33,800 bases of DNA from contig JANYIJ010000199.1 of NCBI GenBank assembly GCA_025362095.1, positions 1 through 33,800 on the forward strand, written 5' to 3'. The notes under the pieces were generated by a model. The model saw nothing but the letters and a program-made list of their open reading frames with translations, was not told the DNA's origin and searched no databases. Positions within the stretch are counted from its first letter, which is position 1. The number at the start of each line of letters is the position of its first letter. Both the position numbers and the translations under genes were made by a program. This document shows positions 27,578 through 33,800 of the stretch, piece after piece. Source of the stretch: Gemmatimonadota bacterium (GTDB lineage Bacteria; Gemmatimonadota; Gemmatimonadetes; Gemmatimonadales; Gemmatimonadaceae).

Positions 27578-29224
27578 ATGTCGAACCTGCAGTATCGTGT
27601 GTCCGCCATCGTCGTGCTGGTCCTCGCGTCTCTCTGGGCACTTTACCCGAGAACCGTGATCGAGCGCAACCGCCGCGGCGGCGCGTTCGTGACCGATACG
27701 ATCAAGCGCGTACCACTCAAAAAGGGACTGGACCTGCAGGGCGGAATGCATCTCACGCTCGCGGTCGACGAGTCCAAGGGCGTCATCGCGAACAAGGGTG
27801 AAGCGCTCGATCGCGCGCTCAAGGTCGTCCGCACGCGTATCGACCAGTTCGGCGTGTCCGAGCCCGTCGTGCAGAAGGCTGGTACCGACCGCATCATCGT
27901 CGAGCTTCCTGGCATCGACGACGAGCGCCGCGCCACCGACGTCGTGCAAAAGGCCGCATTCCTGCAGTTCCAAATCACAGATAAAACCGGCGCCTTCGAG
28001 CGGGTAATCCCGCGCCTCGATGGCATCGTGAAAGAAAAGAAACTCGGCGGCGCCACGGCCGATGTCCGCGGCGACTCCGCGAAAACTCCCGCCATCAAGT
28101 CGCTCTTCACACCGAAAACCGACAGCGCAAAAACGAAAAAGGCCGCCGACTCGACGTCGACGACCGGTCCGTTCTCGCGGCTCGTCATGTCTGCGCAGGC
28201 GCTCGGAAGCCCGGTGCCCGGACTTTTCTTTGTCGCGGCAAGCGACCAGCCGGAGATCGATTCCTACCTGCAGAATGCCGATATTCAGGCGGCACTGCCG
28301 CCCGGAAAAGTCGTGCGCTGGGGCGCTGACTCGACCGTCGTGAACGGCCGCGCACTGATTCCGCTCTATGTGCTCGACGCCCGCGCGATCATCGGTGGCG
28401 ATGCGCTCATCGACGCGCAGCCCACGATGGAGCCGATCGAAGGCACCGTCGTGACGTTCACGCTGAGCAACGAAGGCGGCCGCAAGTTCAAGTCGGAAAC
28501 CGGCAAGCACGTGAAGGACTACATGGCGATCGTTCTCGACGATCGCGTCATGAGCGCTCCGGTTATTCAGAGCGCCATCGGCACGCGCGGACAGATCACG
28601 ATGGGCGGCAAGGATCTCGCCGCCGCGCAGGACCTCGCGATCGTGCTGCGCGCTGGCGCGCTCCCCGTGCCGCTCAAGGTCGAGGAAGTGCGCGCGATCG
28701 GCCCGAGCCTCGGCGCCGATTCGGTGAATAAGGGCATCACCGCCGGCGCGATCGCGGTGCTGCTCGTCGTGATCATCATGCTCGGCTACTACCGCTTCGC
28801 GGGCTTGCTTGCCGTGTGCGGCCTCGCGCTCTACATGCTCTTCACACTCGCCGCCCTCGCAGGATTCAGCGCGGTGCTCACGCTGCCGGGACTCGCGGGC
28901 TTCGTGCTCTCGATCGGCATCGCGGTGGATGCGAACGTGCTGATCTTCGAGCGCATTCGCGAAGAAATGGTGCACGGCAAGGCGATCCGCACCGCGATTG
29001 ACGAAGGCTTCAAGCACGCGATGAGCGCCATCATCGACTCGAACGTTTCCACGGCGCTCACCGCCGCGGTCCTCTACCAGTATGGAACCGGGCCCGTGAA
29101 GGGATTCGCCGTCACACTTATCGCCGGCATCGCGGCATCGATGATCTCGTCGATCTTCGTGGTGAAGACCTTCTTCCTGGTCTGGCTGAGCCGCAACAAA
29201 ACCGCTGAGACGCTGAGCATCTGA
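27578..29224 (+). CDS. secD: Protein translocase subunit SecD
   Basis: The 548-residue membrane protein has an N-terminal transmembrane helix (about 8-24), the signature [12 protein letters not shown] (about 48-59), and a large periplasmic P1-type region. A block of five helices follows from about residue 385 to the end, with [19 protein letters not shown] and [15 protein letters not shown]. With SecF it uses the proton gradient to pull exported proteins through SecYEG. The periplasmic region holds a Lys/Ser/Thr-rich insert (about 165-195) that looks disordered. The TGA overlaps the secF ATG by one base. Confidence 0.97.
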
Positions 29225-30171
29225 TGCTTCGAATCCTGCACGACACCAAGTACGATTTCATCCGCTGGTGGCGCACCGCCGCCGGCCTCACGATCGCTTT
29301 CATCGTGATCGGCATCGGGTCGATCTTCGTTCGCGGAGGATTCGACTACAGCGTCGAATTCACCGGCGGCACGCTGATGCAGCTGCACTTCACAACGCCG
29401 CCGGATCAGGGGAAGATCCGCTCCGCGCTCGACGCCGGCGGCATTCGCGACGAAGAAATCCAAACGTTCGGAACACCCAACGACTTCACCGTCCGCGCGC
29501 GCTCCGATTCCACGGCCACCGGCGCCGACTCGGCCTCGCGAACGATCGAAGGGCTTCTCGTGAAGAGCTTCGGCCGCGACGCGTTCAAGGTTGTGCGCAC
29601 GGAAGCGGTGGGGTCGAAGGTGGGCAGCGAGCTCGCGCGCGGCGCGATCATCGCGATCCTTGTGTCATTCTTCGTCACGCTCGTCTATCTCGCGATTCGT
29701 TTCGACTGGAGATTCGGCGTCGCCGCGACGATCGCGACGATGCACGACATCCTGACGACCGTCGCGTTCATGAAGATCATTCACCTCGAAGTCTCGCTGA
29801 CGGTGATCGCGGCGCTGCTCACTGTGATCGGATATTCGCTGAACGACACGATCATCATCTTCGATCGCGTGCGCGAAAATCTGCGCAAGAACCGCCGCGA
29901 ACCGCTGTACAACACGCTGAACCGCTCGGTGAACGAGACGCTGCCGCGCTCGATTCTCACGCACGCCACCGCGCTCGCCGCGACGCTCGCACTGCTGTTT
30001 TTCGCGGGCGAAGTGATCCGTCCGTTCGCGTGGGTCATGGCGTTCGGTATCGTGACGGGAACGTTCAGCTCCATCTACGTCGCGTCGCCGATCCTGCTCT
30101 GGATCGAGACGAAGTACCCGCGCGAGAACACGGCCAAGTCTGCCAAGGCCACGAAGGCGGCGAGGGCGTAA
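29224..30171 (+). CDS. secF: Protein translocase subunit SecF
   Basis: The 315-residue membrane protein has a first helix at about 17-36, the SecF signature GGFDYSVEFTGGTLMQLHF (shown within limits), a periplasmic domain, and helices from about residue 140 on. The latter include the conserved TVIGYSLNDTIIIFDRVREN and a stretch ending PFAWVMAFGIVTGTFSSIY. The C-tail is basic and Ala-rich. It pairs with SecD in the translocase accessory complex. The start overlaps secD (TGATG), so subunit synthesis is coupled. Confidence 0.97.
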   Translation: MLRILHDTKYDFIRWWRTAAGLTIAFIVIGIGSIFVRGGFDYSVEFTGGTLMQLHFTTPPDQGKIRSALDAGGIRDEEIQTFGTPNDFTVRARSDSTATGADSASRTIEGLLVKSFGRDAFKVVRTEAVGSKVGSELARGAIIAILVSFFVTLVYLAIRFDWRFGVAATIATMHDILTTVAFMKIIHLEVSLTVIAALLTVIGYSLNDTIIIFDRVRENLRKNRREPLYNTLNRSVNETLPRSILTHATALAATLALLFFAGEVIRPFAWVMAFGIVTGTFSSIYVASPILLWIETKYPRENTAKSAKATKAARA

Positions 30172-30204
30172 GCCAGCGGTTCATCGTCGTAAGGGATCGG
30201 TGAA

Positions 30205-31011
30205 ATGCGCTTTGTCGACTCGCACGCTCACCTCGCCGATCCCGCTTTTGATCTCGATCGCAACGATGTGATCGCGCGCGCCCGCGCTGCGGGCGCTGCG
30301 GCCGTCGTCGCAATCGGAGAATCCCTGGCCGCCGCCGCGCGGGCGCGCGAGGTCGCCACAGCGAATCCCGGGTTCGTTTTCTTCACCGCCGGCGTGCACC
30401 CGCACGACGCAGCGTCGTTCGATCCCGTGAACGATCCCATTGCGATCCGCACAGAGGTGGCGCAGGGCGCCGTCGCGATCGGGGAGTGTGGTCTCGACTA
30501 CCACTACGATCACACTCCGCGCGAACTTCAGCGCCGCGCGTTTGCGGCGCAGCTCGCGCTTTCAAGCGAAACCGGGCGCCCGGTGGTGGTGCACACGCGT
30601 GAAGCTGAGGACGACACCGCCGCGATGGTGCGCGAAGCGGGCGCAGCTGGAATTGGCGGCGTACTCCATTGCTTCACGGGATCGCACGCCCTCGCGCACG
30701 CGGCGCTCGAATCGGGATGGTACATTTCGTTCAGTGGCATCGTGACGTTCAAGAAATGGATCGACGACGATCTGTTGCGGCTCGTGCCCGATGACAAGCT
30801 GCTGGTCGAATCGGACTCGCCGTATCTCGCGCCGGTGCCCGATCGCGGGAAACGAAACGAGCCGGCGTGGGTCGCGCGGACGGTAGAGCGCGTGGCGCTG
30901 GCACGCGGAGTCTATGCTGAAACGGTCGGTGAGCAGTGCGCGGCAAACGCCGTGAAGCTTTTTGGGCTGTCATCTTCGATCGTCCATCTTCCATCGGAAT
31001 TTTCAACATGA
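30205..31011 (+). CDS. tatD: TatD-family metal-dependent hydrolase (DNase)
   Basis: The 268-residue TIM-barrel protein has the TatD metal ligands: DSHAH (H7, H9), GECGLDY (E94), VVHTRE (H130), LHCFTG (H155) and ESDSPYL (D204). Family members are 3'-5' exonucleases or DNases acting in DNA quality control; none has a proven role in Tat export. The ATG at 30205 has AAGGGA upstream. The last residues are a family-unlike tail (SSIVHLPSEFST), since its TGA lies within the ATGA shared with ridA. Confidence 0.93.
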   Translation: MRFVDSHAHLADPAFDLDRNDVIARARAAGAAAVVAIGESLAAAARAREVATANPGFVFFTAGVHPHDAASFDPVNDPIAIRTEVAQGAVAIGECGLDYHYDHTPRELQRRAFAAQLALSSETGRPVVVHTREAEDDTAAMVREAGAAGIGGVLHCFTGSHALAHAALESGWYISFSGIVTFKKWIDDDLLRLVPDDKLLVESDSPYLAPVPDRGKRNEPAWVARTVERVALARGVYAETVGEQCAANAVKLFGLSSSIVHLPSEFST

Positions 31012-31391
31012 GCGTGCGCTACCTGCAAACCGCTGAAGCACCCGAGGCCATCGGCCCTTATTCGCAGGCAGCCGCCGTCGGCGGCTTTCTGTTCACCGCA
31101 GGTCAGATCGCATTCGATCCGAAGACGATGCAAGTCGTCGAGGGCGACGTGGCCGCGCAGACCGAGCAGGTGATGAAGAATCTCACAGCCGTCCTCTCGA
31201 ACGCCGGTTGCAGCTGGGCCGAAGTCGCGAAGACGACGATCTTCCTCGTGGACATGGCGGATTTCGCGAAGGTGAACGAGGTCTACGCGAAGCACATCGG
31301 CGGCTCGCGTCCCGCGCGCTCGACCGTTGCCGTCGCCGGACTTCCGCGCGGCGTGCGCGTGGAGATCGAGTGCGTGGCAAAGGTCGGCTGA
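31008..31391 (+). CDS. ridA: RidA-family reactive enamine/imine deaminase
   Basis: The 127-residue protein matches RidA (YjgF/YER057c/UK114): EAIGPYSQA, FLFTAGQIAFDP, TEQVMKNL, TTIFLVDMADFAKVNEVY, and RSTVAVAGLPRGVRVEIECVA with the conserved Arg that holds the substrate carboxylate. It breaks down 2-aminoacrylate and similar imines released by PLP enzymes. The ATG overlaps the tatD stop (ATGA); a longer frame starting inside tatD is not supported. selD follows 25 bp downstream. Confidence 0.95.
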   Translation: MSVRYLQTAEAPEAIGPYSQAAAVGGFLFTAGQIAFDPKTMQVVEGDVAAQTEQVMKNLTAVLSNAGCSWAEVAKTTIFLVDMADFAKVNEVYAKHIGGSRPARSTVAVAGLPRGVRVEIECVAKVG

Positions 31392-31416
31392 ACCGCCACG
31401 AGGCACGGGGAACATC

Positions 31417-32466
31417 ATGGCCACCGCGACGAAAGAGGATGTGATTCGCCTGACGCAGTTCGCGCGCTGCGCGGGCTGCGCTGCGAAAATGGGACCAGGC
31501 GATCTCTCCGCCGCGCTCGCGCCACTGGAGCGCCGCACGGATCCGCGCATTCTGGTCGGGCGCGAAACGTTCGATGACGCCGGTGTTTATCAGCTCACGC
31601 CGGAACTCGCGCTCGTGCAGACACTCGATTTTTTCGCGCCGATCGTCGATGATCCGTACGACTTCGGCCGCGTCGCGGCGACCAACGCGCTGTCAGATGT
31701 GTTCGCGATGGGCGGCGAGCCGATCACCGCGATGAACATCGTCGGGTTTCCAGTCGGCCAGCTTCCGCTCAGCGCGCTCACCGACATGCTGCGCGGTGGG
31801 CAGGACGCGGTGCACGACGCAGGCGCTCATATCATCGGCGGCCACACCATCACCGATGAAGAACTCAAGTACGGGCTCTCCGTGACCGGCACGATCCACC
31901 CGCAGCGCATTCTCACGAACGCCGCTGCGAAACCCGGCGACGCGCTCGTGCTGACGAAAGCGATCGGCACCGGAATTCTTTCGACCGCTGCAAAGCGCGG
32001 TGCTCTCGGAGCCGCCGCCCAAACGGCACTCGTGAAGTCGATGACCACGCTCAATGCCGCCGCGAGCCGCGCAGCAATGGCGCTCGGCCTCGAGTGCGCC
32101 ACTGACGTCACGGGTTTCGGTCTGCTCGGACACGCGTCGCACGTCGCGCGCGCGAGCAATGCGACACTCGTGATTCACGTGTCGAAGGTGCCGCTCCTTC
32201 TTGGCGCGCGCGACGCGCTCGCCGCGGGCGCGCTCACGGGCGGCGCAGCCCGGAACGATACGTATCTGGAACCACTGGTGAACTGGGGGCGTACCACGAC
32301 GGAAGAACGTGCATTCCTCGTCGATCCTCAAACTTCCGGCGGACTGTTGGTCGCTGTCCCGCAGAGCAAACTTTCGGATTATCTCAGCCGCGTCGACGGC
32401 GCCGTGCAGATCGGCGAAGTGCGGGAGCGTTCTCATTCTGGTGAATGGCTCAGTCTTCAAAACTGA
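31417..32466 (+). CDS. selD: Selenide, water dikinase (selenophosphate synthetase)
   Basis: The 349-residue SelD makes selenophosphate, the selenium donor for selenocysteine, from selenide and ATP. The N-terminus reads RLTQFARCAGCAAK, giving C21 and K24 at the places of catalytic Cys17 and Lys20 of E. coli; this is a Cys rather than a Sec form. Further marks are QTLDFFAPIVDDPYDFGRVA, TNALSDVFAMGG, IIGGHTITDEE, CATDVTGFGLLGHA and PQTSGGLL. The ATG has CGGGGA upstream. The family-conserved part ends near QIGEV. The last 14 residues (336-349) and the TGA are encoded by the first 44 bases of the tRNA-Sec gene. No SECIS-like use of that TGA is apparent. Confidence 0.96.
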   Translation: MATATKEDVIRLTQFARCAGCAAKMGPGDLSAALAPLERRTDPRILVGRETFDDAGVYQLTPELALVQTLDFFAPIVDDPYDFGRVAATNALSDVFAMGGEPITAMNIVGFPVGQLPLSALTDMLRGGQDAVHDAGAHIIGGHTITDEELKYGLSVTGTIHPQRILTNAAAKPGDALVLTKAIGTGILSTAAKRGALGAAAQTALVKSMTTLNAAASRAAMALGLECATDVTGFGLLGHASHVARASNATLVIHVSKVPLLLGARDALAAGALTGGAARNDTYLEPLVNWGRTTTEERAFLVDPQTSGGLLVAVPQSKLSDYLSRVDGAVQIGEVRERSHSGEWLSLQN

Positions 32467-32519
32467 TGCGACCTGACGACGTCGGGTTGGGTGGGTTCGA
32501 TTCCCATACGCTCCCGCCA
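32423..32519 (+). tRNA. selC: tRNA-Sec (anticodon TCA)
   Basis: The 97-nt gene folds as a bacterial selenocysteine tRNA. The 8-bp acceptor stem is GGGAGCGT (32423-32430) with ACGCTCCC (32508-32515), then discriminator G and an encoded CCA (32517-32519). The 6-bp D stem TCATTC/GAATGG has the tiny loop TGGT. The 5-bp anticodon stem TCAGT/ACTGA has loop CTTCAAA, with TCA at 32457-32459. The long variable arm CGACCTGA/TCGGGTTG pairs over 8 bp (with G-U pairs), and the T arm is GTGGG-TTCGATT-CCCAT. The 8+5 acceptor/T layout is the bacterial Sec type. It overlaps selD by 44 bp on the same strand. Confidence 0.97.
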
Positions 32520-32573
32520 GCCGGTCGCGCCGTCTGCGCGGCCCGCGTCGCGCGGATCGCGGCGCACGGTGTC

Positions 32574-33173
32574 ATGCTCGCCGTCTGTGTGAGTGGCGCG
32601 GCACTCGCGCAGAAACCCGACAGCACCACGGGCTTCAAGGCGGTCGCCACCGATACCGTTCCCGCGCTGCCGGCGAAGCGCATCCTCAAGCCCTTCACAC
32701 CGCCGCCGATTTCACCACGCCGCGCGTTCGTCTACTCCGCTCTTATTCCCGGGATGGGGCAGGCGGCGCTCGACCGGAAATACACGGGCGCGACATTTTT
32801 TCTCATCGAGGCCGTCTCGTGGGCAATCCTGCGTCGCTCGGCCAACGACGAACGAATCGCGAAGTCGTTCGCGGGCGATTCGGTGCCGCAGTCGTACGCG
32901 ATCGATCCCAACACCGGCCTCGCGCAGCGAGACGGCCACGGCAATCCTGTCGTCGCGACGTGGTCGCAGACCCGCTACTCGAAAGATCTCGTGCATGCCC
33001 GCGCGCTGCAGGTGGAGGACTGGGTCGCGGTGATTCTGTTCAATCACCTTTTCGCGGGAGCCGACGCGTACGTCGCGGCGAACCTCTGGGATTTGCCGCA
33101 GCACCTCGGCATGCGCGCCACGCCGCTGCCGCGCGGCGGAGCGGCGCTGACGTTCTCGTTCAGCGTTCGCTAA
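32574..33173 (+). CDS. DUF5683-type envelope protein
   Basis: The 199-residue product (from ATG 32574) begins with a short hydrophobic stretch ending ALA before Q13, probably a signal sequence. A Pro-rich linker (KRILKPFTPPPISPRRA) follows, then the DUF5683-like core AFVYSALIPGMGQAALDRKYTGA and a second hydrophobic region (DWVAVILFNHLFAGADAYVAA). Such proteins are of unknown function in the cell envelope. The start is uncertain: the chosen one gives a signal with no basic N-region and has no good ribosome binding site. An in-frame ATG at 32466, sharing the selD stop (TGATG), would extend the protein through the tRNA-Sec gene. Confidence 0.75.
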   Translation: MLAVCVSGAALAQKPDSTTGFKAVATDTVPALPAKRILKPFTPPPISPRRAFVYSALIPGMGQAALDRKYTGATFFLIEAVSWAILRRSANDERIAKSFAGDSVPQSYAIDPNTGLAQRDGHGNPVVATWSQTRYSKDLVHARALQVEDWVAVILFNHLFAGADAYVAANLWDLPQHLGMRATPLPRGGAALTFSFSVR

Positions 33174-33188
33174 ACTGCTCGCGGCGCG

Positions 33189-33800
33189 TTAGCGCCCGGC
33201 CGCGGTTCGCTTCTCTTCCTGTATGATGCGCACGCTGCCGCCCTCGAGCGTGGCGAGTTCGATGCGATCGTCGTTGATCCGCAGAAACGTCGGCCCGTCC
33301 ATCCACGCTCCAGGATTCGCCATCACGCCGCCTTGCGCAGATTTTCCGATCGTCGGCGCGTGCGAATGTCCGTAGACGTAGAGCTCAAGCGAGGAATCGG
33401 CCGCGAGCCTCTCGAGCGCGACGCGCGCGAGTCCTTCGCCACGGTCGCGCGGACGCATGTTGCGGCTCGTGTGCGACGTCCGCAAGGCGATCCACGTCGC
33501 AATGTCTGGATGAATCCAGCGAAAAAGGTTTATCGCGATTGGATTCCTCAGCACGGCGCGCAGACGGCGATACGGCGCGTCCTCTTTGTCACGCAGCCCG
33601 TCGCCGTGCTCGATCAGCACGTTCCATCCGGCGATCGATCCGCGCCAAGGCCCCACATGGTACGTCACGCCGACGTCCTTCGTGAGAATCTCGCCGCCCC
33701 AGCAGTCGTGATTGCCCGCGATCCAGAGCACCTCCACGCCAGCTTCACGCAACGCGGCGATCGACGCCAGCGCGCGGAATCCCACCCGCGGCATCACGTG
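33189..33800 (-). CDS. LpxH-like metallophosphatase (cut by window edge)
   Basis: The frame runs off the right edge; the visible 203 residues or so lack the N-terminus. Calcineurin-like motifs are GNHDCWGG, EHGDG and YGHSHAP, with further core residues in HTSRNMRPRDRGEG. Family comparison suggests that the missing part holds the DxH and GDLFDFWFE-type motifs just upstream. Close relatives are UDP-2,3-diacylglucosamine diphosphatases (LpxH) and look-alike phosphoesterases in diderm bacteria, so a role in lipid A synthesis is plausible but not certain. It converges on the DUF5683 gene with 15 bp between stops and no visible terminator. Confidence 0.85.
   Translation of the reverse strand, partial: HVMPRVGFRALASIAALREAGVEVLWIAGNHDCWGGEILTKDVGVTYHVGPWRGSIAGWNVLIEHGDGLRDKEDAPYRRLRAVLRNPIAINLFRWIHPDIATWIALRTSHTSRNMRPRDRGEGLARVALERLAADSSLELYVYGHSHAPTIGKSAQGGVMANPGAWMDGPTFLRINDDRIELATLEGGSVRIIQEEKRTAAGR

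Follow-up and report, generated by a model that had tools for sequence, protein, structure and literature searches.

A selenocysteine tRNA gene that overlaps the 3' end of selD, and probably the start of the following gene, in a clade of Gemmatimonadaceae

The stretch of DNA that we analyzed, here called the window, comprises 33,800 nucleotides of a contig from a Gemmatimonadota bacterium. In it the gene for tRNA-Sec, selC, begins before selD has ended, so that 44 nucleotides belong to both genes on the same strand. The open frames on both sides of the tRNA, the overlap of a stop codon with a start codon, and a derived selD end common to four genomes can all be read directly from the DNA. We consider it moderately probable, taken as a whole, that the entire tRNA lies in open frame, with nucleotides (nt) 1 to 44 ending selD and nt 44 to 97 probably starting the next gene, that selC is embedded in a translated operon (tatD-rid-selD-selC-DUF5683-like) whose RNA is either cut or translated, and that the overlap arose by deletion. 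The preliminary description of this locus covered the selD side but missed the downstream DUF5683-like gene, which apparently also overlaps the tRNA. The features of the locus are listed in Table 1.

Table 1. Genes and overlaps at the selD-selC locus of the window
Feature	Position	Strand	Evidence
secF-like gene, co-directional run ahead of selD	29224..30171	+	ORF
TatD-family hydrolase gene	30205..31011	+	TIGR00010, 240.7 bits (cut-off 206)
Rid-family deaminase gene	31008..31391	+	TIGR00004, 165.4 bits (cut-off 106.25)
selD, selenide water dikinase (selenophosphate synthetase), 349 aa, Cys form	31417..32466	+	ORF and TIGR00476
selC, tRNA-Sec, encoded CCA, anticodon UCA	32423..32519	+	ARAGORN, RF01852
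44-nt selD/selC overlap, tRNA nt 1-44, SelD tail RERSHSGEWLSLQN	32423..32466	+	ORF versus tRNA coordinates
TGATG: selD stop 32464-32466 and start 32466-32468, tRNA nt 42-46	32464..32468	+	sequence
DUF5683-like secreted or membrane protein gene, likely start ATG 32466	32466..33173	+	ORF 32445-33173, PF18935 sub-threshold
Putative second overlap, tRNA nt 44-97 as DUF5683-like N terminus (MRPDDVGLGGFDSHTLPP...)	32466..32519	+	inferred

The first ORF of the table is, by its sequence, presumably a secF-like gene. The end of tatD and rid overlap by 4 nt, and 25 nt separate rid from selD. A promoter scan of 29100-33300 found no sigma-70-like promoter, which is weak evidence; the scan detects sigma-70-like sites only, and a separate selC promoter of another type would escape it. 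Because tatD, rid, and selD lie head to tail and no such promoter was found, the tRNA-Sec is probably cut from the operon transcript.

ARAGORN called a tRNA-SeC at 32423-32519 with the anticodon tca at position 35, and the UCA anticodon, the long variable arm, and the encoded CCA are all present. The tRNA-Sec assignment made in the preliminary description was borne out by the model RF01852, which matched 32423-32515 over all 91 model positions with 77.4 bits against a gathering score of 47 (E 1.8e-14) and was also found in relatives, giving 16 tRNA-Sec genomes among the 18 of the window's genus (E <= 1e-11). This was the one match above the gathering score in the draft of the window's own genome, G000, with the best of the 6 others listed reaching 46.6. 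The cloverleaf was also predicted de novo (z = -3.69; 2 of 200 shuffles fold equally well).

The selD gene runs from ATG 31417 to TGA 32464-32466 with no earlier in-frame stop, and its 349-residue product scored 375.9 bits against TIGR00476 (cut-off 125). As had been claimed, by the coordinates, tRNA nt 1-44 coincide with the final 14 codons and the TGA of selD, entered at the second base of Arg codon 336: 2 nt of that codon, 13 full codons (337-349), and the stop. Residues C21 (Sec/Cys) and K24, which lie near the N terminus and which we take to be conserved for a catalytic role, are invariant in 27 aligned SelDs of the family and in 41 diverse SelDs, Sec rows being counted as Cys. Readthrough of the selD TGA as Sec was also considered.

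The junction and the 97-nt tRNA of the window are identical in three further genomes, G009, G011, and G014, the last of which is listed as 100% complete in about 30 contigs; this rules out misassembly or a chance origin of the overlap. That the locus is an artefact of misassembly, a frameshift, or a false tRNA call is hardly credible. Such a reading could appeal to the state of G000, a 253-contig draft that is 92% complete, but the junction is repeated in four assemblies, the RF01852 score is strong, and the SelD-homologous frame is single and open. Two objections raised in advance have thus fallen away, namely, that a frameshift error hides a selD stop before 32423, where we found one open frame, and that the overlap is an assembly error or unique accident, since four genomes have it.

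The 44-nt overlap is present in 4 of the 16 tRNA-Sec genomes of the genus (G000, G009, G011, and G014). The selD stop abuts tRNA nt 1 exactly in G013 and G015, and a gap of 11-49 nt separates selD from selC in the remaining 10. Since 12 of the 16 do without it, the overlap is, on this distribution, dispensable rather than required. A SelD nucleotide tree was built from 14 of the 16 genus members and 4 outgroup genomes, omitting G013 and G007, in which selD is cut by contig ends. In this tree the four overlap genomes formed one group (support 94/96; 92% of 200 bootstrap trees), with G012 and G015 as the nearest genomes without the overlap (support 86/90). A single origin of the selD-selC overlap is favored on this basis.

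We then compared the SelD C termini in an alignment of 27 sequences, which revealed a derived tail in the four overlap genomes. The family-conserved part of SelD had been said to end right before the tRNA. This stands insofar as the TIGR00476 match ends earlier, at residue 317 (Pfam AIRS_C extends to residue 341), but relatives carry about 10-11 more residues that are lost here. Their SelDs end about 10-13 residues past a shared V335, mostly 10-11, in a hydrophobic strand that often reads I-V-L or I-V-V, and at the place of this ancestral end the four overlap genomes read RERSHSGEWLSLQN. Judged from the alignment, the clade has lost the ancestral C terminus and tRNA-coded residues have taken its place, most likely through a deletion of a few tens of base pairs that removed the old tail and stop of selD.

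To see what such a tail might form, we modeled the protein with AlphaFold2, using as input 41 sequences, namely, the window's SelD and those of 40 of 79 diverse loci (19 without an in-frame TGA and 21 of the 60 with one). The model had a mean pLDDT of 93 and a pTM of 0.91, and its best matches among solved structures were the Aquifex and E. coli SelDs. A strand at residues 345-348 is built solely from tRNA-coded residues; the block 341-349 has a pLDDT of 89, a prediction that may draw on the alignment of other SelDs. The tRNA-coded tail is therefore predicted to rebuild the last beta-strand of SelD, and it would have been kept because this replacement was functional.

The SelD of the overlap clade is probably in use, because each genome has a single selD, selA and selB are present, and a formate-dehydrogenase-like gene with a TGA accompanies them. 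There was one selD match per genome in G000 (at E <= 1e-20), G009, G011, and G014, and selA and selB were found in all four, selB of G000 lying on contig C96. The formate-dehydrogenase-like gene, with a single in-frame TGA, was found in G009 and G014 and as a fragment in G011; TIGR01591 scores of 655-665 bits, and of 334 for the fragment, fell short of the cut-off of 666. The G000 draft yielded no TGA-containing formate dehydrogenase. A search of the same draft for tmRNA with RF00023 gave five matches, all sub-threshold, the best two being tRNA-Ala genes; the missing tmRNA may be a gap of this incomplete draft.

Seven relatives appeared to have early stops in selD, a reading we rejected, as each is an in-frame TGA at the catalytic position (Sec); the selD stops of the family were accordingly located by scanning the C-terminal part, avoiding this TGA. 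SelD itself thus appears to be a selenoprotein in many relatives, with the catalytic-site TGA in at least 23 of 102 family loci (many rows being unreadable by pattern) and in 60 of the 79 best diverse loci listed. In the window's genus the catalytic position is Cys in 14 of the 14 read, from 16 members.

We looked across the family to determine how widely selD and selC are neighbors. tRNA-Sec was present in 104 of 179 genomes, giving 106 loci, at 100 of which selD precedes selC in the same orientation. Gaps of 3-88 nt separate the two genes at 94 of the 100 loci, while 2 abut and 4 overlap; the gap is 0-7 nt at 53. Of the other six loci, three lie at contig ends, G168 has no selD in the examined stretch, and G033 (L050) and G072 (L097), from two genera, have tRNA-Sec followed by a divergent selD (44-46% identity) that may have replaced the original gene. 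No selD was found beside tRNA-Sec at 18 loci from two other families of the order, within the examined stretch. In a wider selD survey, one of the best 80 loci listed belonged to a Gemmatimonadetes MAG (64% identity), and the other 79 came from other phyla. None of these 79 had tRNA-Sec downstream of selD, the examined stretch being short for a few, and 5 had it upstream (4 on the same strand, 1 on the opposite). The close selD-selC order looks like a trait of this family, with the overlap as a derived state of one clade.

These distributions bear on a first alternative, that the overlap is neutral compaction of little consequence, with most tRNA-Sec transcribed from a selC promoter inside selD, or with enough time between processing and translation for the overlap to cost nothing. 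It is somewhat unlikely in our view. The 12 of 16 relatives without the overlap, the appearance of one event in one clade, and a tail that may be merely what the tRNA spells and is tolerated are all as it would predict. It fits less well with the adjacency of selD and selC at small gaps across the family, with the many relatives whose downstream gene has no start codon outside the tRNA (see below), and, as weak evidence, with the lack of a sigma-70-like promoter nearby.

Downstream of selC lies a gene for a DUF5683-like protein. The window's protein scored 22.2 and 22.6 bits against PF18935, under the gathering score of 26.7; none of 9 DUF5683-like proteins tested passed this score (best, 25.3), and a conserved core was evident in a 16-sequence alignment that included the window's protein. 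The in-frame starts inside the tRNA are ATG 32445, ATG 32466, and TTG 32487. ATG 32466 overlaps the selD TGA as TGATG, in the region of the 3' strand of the anticodon stem. The ATG at 32574 is also in frame but is a less likely start, being placed within the hydrophobic core, so that the signal peptide would be very short. From its sequence, the window's gene probably starts inside the tRNA.

Twelve genus members with a downstream gene provide a comparison. At tRNA nt 44, in frame, 11 have ATG and 1 has GTG, and all 12 share the frame at 11 different tRNA-to-core distances, a constancy that is weaker than it appears since much of that distance is coding anyway. Inspection by eye showed no Shine-Dalgarno-like site before nt 44. 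Starts upstream of the tRNA are barred in the overlap clade by a TGA at tRNA nt 20-22. In G009 and G014, GTG or TTG codons located 3' of the tRNA might serve as starts. We consider the case for a second overlap in the window to be good but not closed. In G013, G015, and G012 (L008, L009, and L016) no DUF5683-like gene was found after the tRNA, with matches to the tRNA part only, and these three genomes have GTG, not ATG, at nt 44; G005 has ATG there, yet no DUF5683-like gene was found.

A DUF5683-like gene follows tRNA-Sec at 111 loci of two families (85 and 26). At 44 of the 111, a script based on a simple hydrophobicity rule found no ATG, GTG, or TTG in the interval from the tRNA to the signal-peptide core, a count that includes the miscalled G263, whose first ATG comes 72 codons after the tRNA; by eye, an earlier version of the script had also miscalled G066, G146, G184, and G007. 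An in-frame start inside the tRNA was present at 42 of the 44, G238 and G244 having one only upstream of the tRNA. The other 67 loci had an ATG after the tRNA (34), only GTG/TTG (27), or an intervening stop (6), so a start inside the tRNA is not general across these loci. At one locus, G240 (L217), the A of an in-frame ATG is the last base of CCA, tRNA nt 97.

The clearest cases were the genera g5 (14 of 15 genomes) and g7 (4 of 4), in which at most about 4 codons, none of them a start codon or a near-start codon shared among the genomes, separate the tRNA end from the core; the fifteenth g5 genome, G191, has its own ATG in another frame. The tRNA frame from nt 46 spells a positive n-region in g5 and g7, such as VTLLRRVGWVRFPHSPAT, although starts upstream of the tRNA may be used there. 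At L047 2449-2600 (G021) and other g5/g7 loci, the charged n-region is apparently encoded in its entirety by the 3' half of the tRNA. In frame-B genomes (g1, g42, and most of g15), the tRNA-coded stretch has a net charge of -1 or -2, and positive charges, where present, come 3' of it; by its composition, this stretch alone is a poor signal-peptide n-region.

We also examined substitutions after the tRNA. Between G009 and G011, the first 14 codons differ by 3 third-position changes and 1 first-position change. Changes at positions 1/2/3 numbered 19/6/16 in g5, 6/1/11 in g7, 1/0/3 in g1, and 4/5/1 in the control g47, a thin test of 5, 2, 1, and 2 pairs, respectively, with no usable pair in g18, g42, g14, g15, or g48. 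The pattern is only suggestive of coding sequence after the tRNA.

A second alternative is that only selD overlaps the tRNA, the DUF5683-like protein starting after it from a noncanonical codon or with a very short signal peptide, and the second overlap being a chance open frame. An open frame is by itself unremarkable, as at the seven loci inspected no stop interrupts any of the three frames between tRNA nt 55 and the CCA end; an ordinary ATG follows the tRNA at 34 of the 111 loci, and g47 has such an ATG in 8 of 9 genomes, with mixed frames. Against this, the g5 and g7 genomes (18 of 19) combine a core within about 4 codons, no ATG/GTG/TTG, and charge from the tRNA part, and the downstream frame is constant in g1 (12/12), g7 (4/4), g42 (5/5), and g18 (3/3). 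We regard this alternative as improbable.

A broader reading, to which we give somewhat less than an even chance, is that the order often uses tRNA-Sec as coding sequence. A start codon and the charged front of a secreted protein's signal peptide would come from its 3' half, and selD of the window's clade would also end in its 5' half, so that there the whole tRNA would be read in two frames via TGATG and form a cut-or-translate junction linking three products.

The anatomy suggests how the preferred reading, with the tRNA cut from or translated within the operon transcript, could work. A ribosome reaching the end of selD would unwind the tRNA part, halt at UGA, and could restart at the overlapping AUG. 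If the tRNA folded first, RNase P and 3'-end nucleases would excise it, so that the selD message would lack its stop codon and the downstream message its start codon. Each RNA would then give either tRNA-Sec or full SelD plus the secreted protein. The earlier argument that RNase P cleavage at 32422/32423 would remove the selD stop, so that one RNA could not serve both purposes, is sound by logic: given the overlap, the tRNA and a normally terminated SelD would be mutually exclusive on one RNA. This exclusivity is best seen as a physical consequence of the anatomy, and we do not yet claim an evolved regulator.

Such a regulator is the third alternative, in which selD translation hides the tRNA, tRNA folding shuts off SelD and the downstream protein, and selenophosphate is tuned to tRNA-Sec. 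The anatomy with its exact TGATG junction, the published selB parallel (Mukai 2021, PMC8124441), and the family-wide closeness of selD and selC are consistent with a switch of this kind. We nevertheless doubt it, since the overlap is not conserved within the genus, the argument is based on anatomy with no selenium link seen, and the tRNA is identical in the four genomes, which makes selection on the inner coding frame unmeasurable.

Overlaps of selC with another gene of the Sec pathway are known. Mukai 2021 (PMC8124441) reported selC nested in selB in Alphaproteobacteria, selB-selC overlaps in Alphaproteobacteria, Gammaproteobacteria, and Nitrospirae, and, for Dyella and Luteibacter, partial overlaps in which the stop occupies tRNA nt 46-48. 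The paper put forward a processing-or-translation model as a hypothesis; the consulted part of a 2026 review (PMC13188914) repeats the overlap model for selB only. The window resembles selB-selC (PMC8124441) in that selC overlaps the 3' end of a Sec-pathway gene on the same strand, the host stop lies within the tRNA (here at nt 42-44), the tRNA dictates the residues of the C-terminal extension, and the host stop shares bases with the probable start codon of the next ORF, as it does with that start in Alphaproteobacteria. It differs in that the tRNA begins at a codon's second base, not in frame as Gly. The host gene here is selD, with selB on another contig, so the window is not a member of that group; its tail replaces a lost SelD strand, and its downstream ORF seems to start inside the tRNA.

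The window shares with bacterial sel clusters, including selABC operons and those containing selC (PMC5330540, PMC8124441), the placement of Sec-machinery genes beside selC, but the consulted passages of these two sources describe no selD overlap. A term search of PMC8124441 returned "Gemmatimonad" 0 times and selD three times. An overlap of tRNA-Lys with cox1 in Armadillidium vulgare mitochondria is cited in PMC8124441. As in such mitochondrial overlaps, tRNA processing and an intact message would be mutually exclusive here; unlike here, those lie in a compact organelle genome and involve unrelated genes. The supposition that the overlap was undescribed therefore survives in part: searches of the open-access literature, from which most subscription journals and bioRxiv preprints are absent, showed neither a selD-selC overlap nor any signal peptide that starts within a tRNA, but the selB-selC precedent comes with the same model (PMC8124441). 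What appears new here is selD as host and the probable second overlap; the cut-or-translate idea had already been proposed for selB.

If the preferred reading is true, a tRNA with every base protein coding would be an extreme gene overlap outside organelles and viruses, and the tRNA and the first of the two proteins, SelD, belong to the same pathway. The family would provide a natural series (gap, abutment, and overlap; ATG after the tRNA and start inside it) for testing the cut-or-translate model, which so far has been only a proposal for selB. The locus would also show how a protein can acquire its tail, or a signal peptide its front, from tRNA sequence, and start and stop codons at such tRNA/protein junctions may be misassigned by automatic annotation.

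Finally, the D-arm of the tRNA (window 32434-32447) is AU-rich, CATTC...GAATG, in the four overlap genomes and GC-rich in the other genus members. The AU-rich arm yields TGA-ATG at tRNA nt 20-25 in the frame of the downstream gene.
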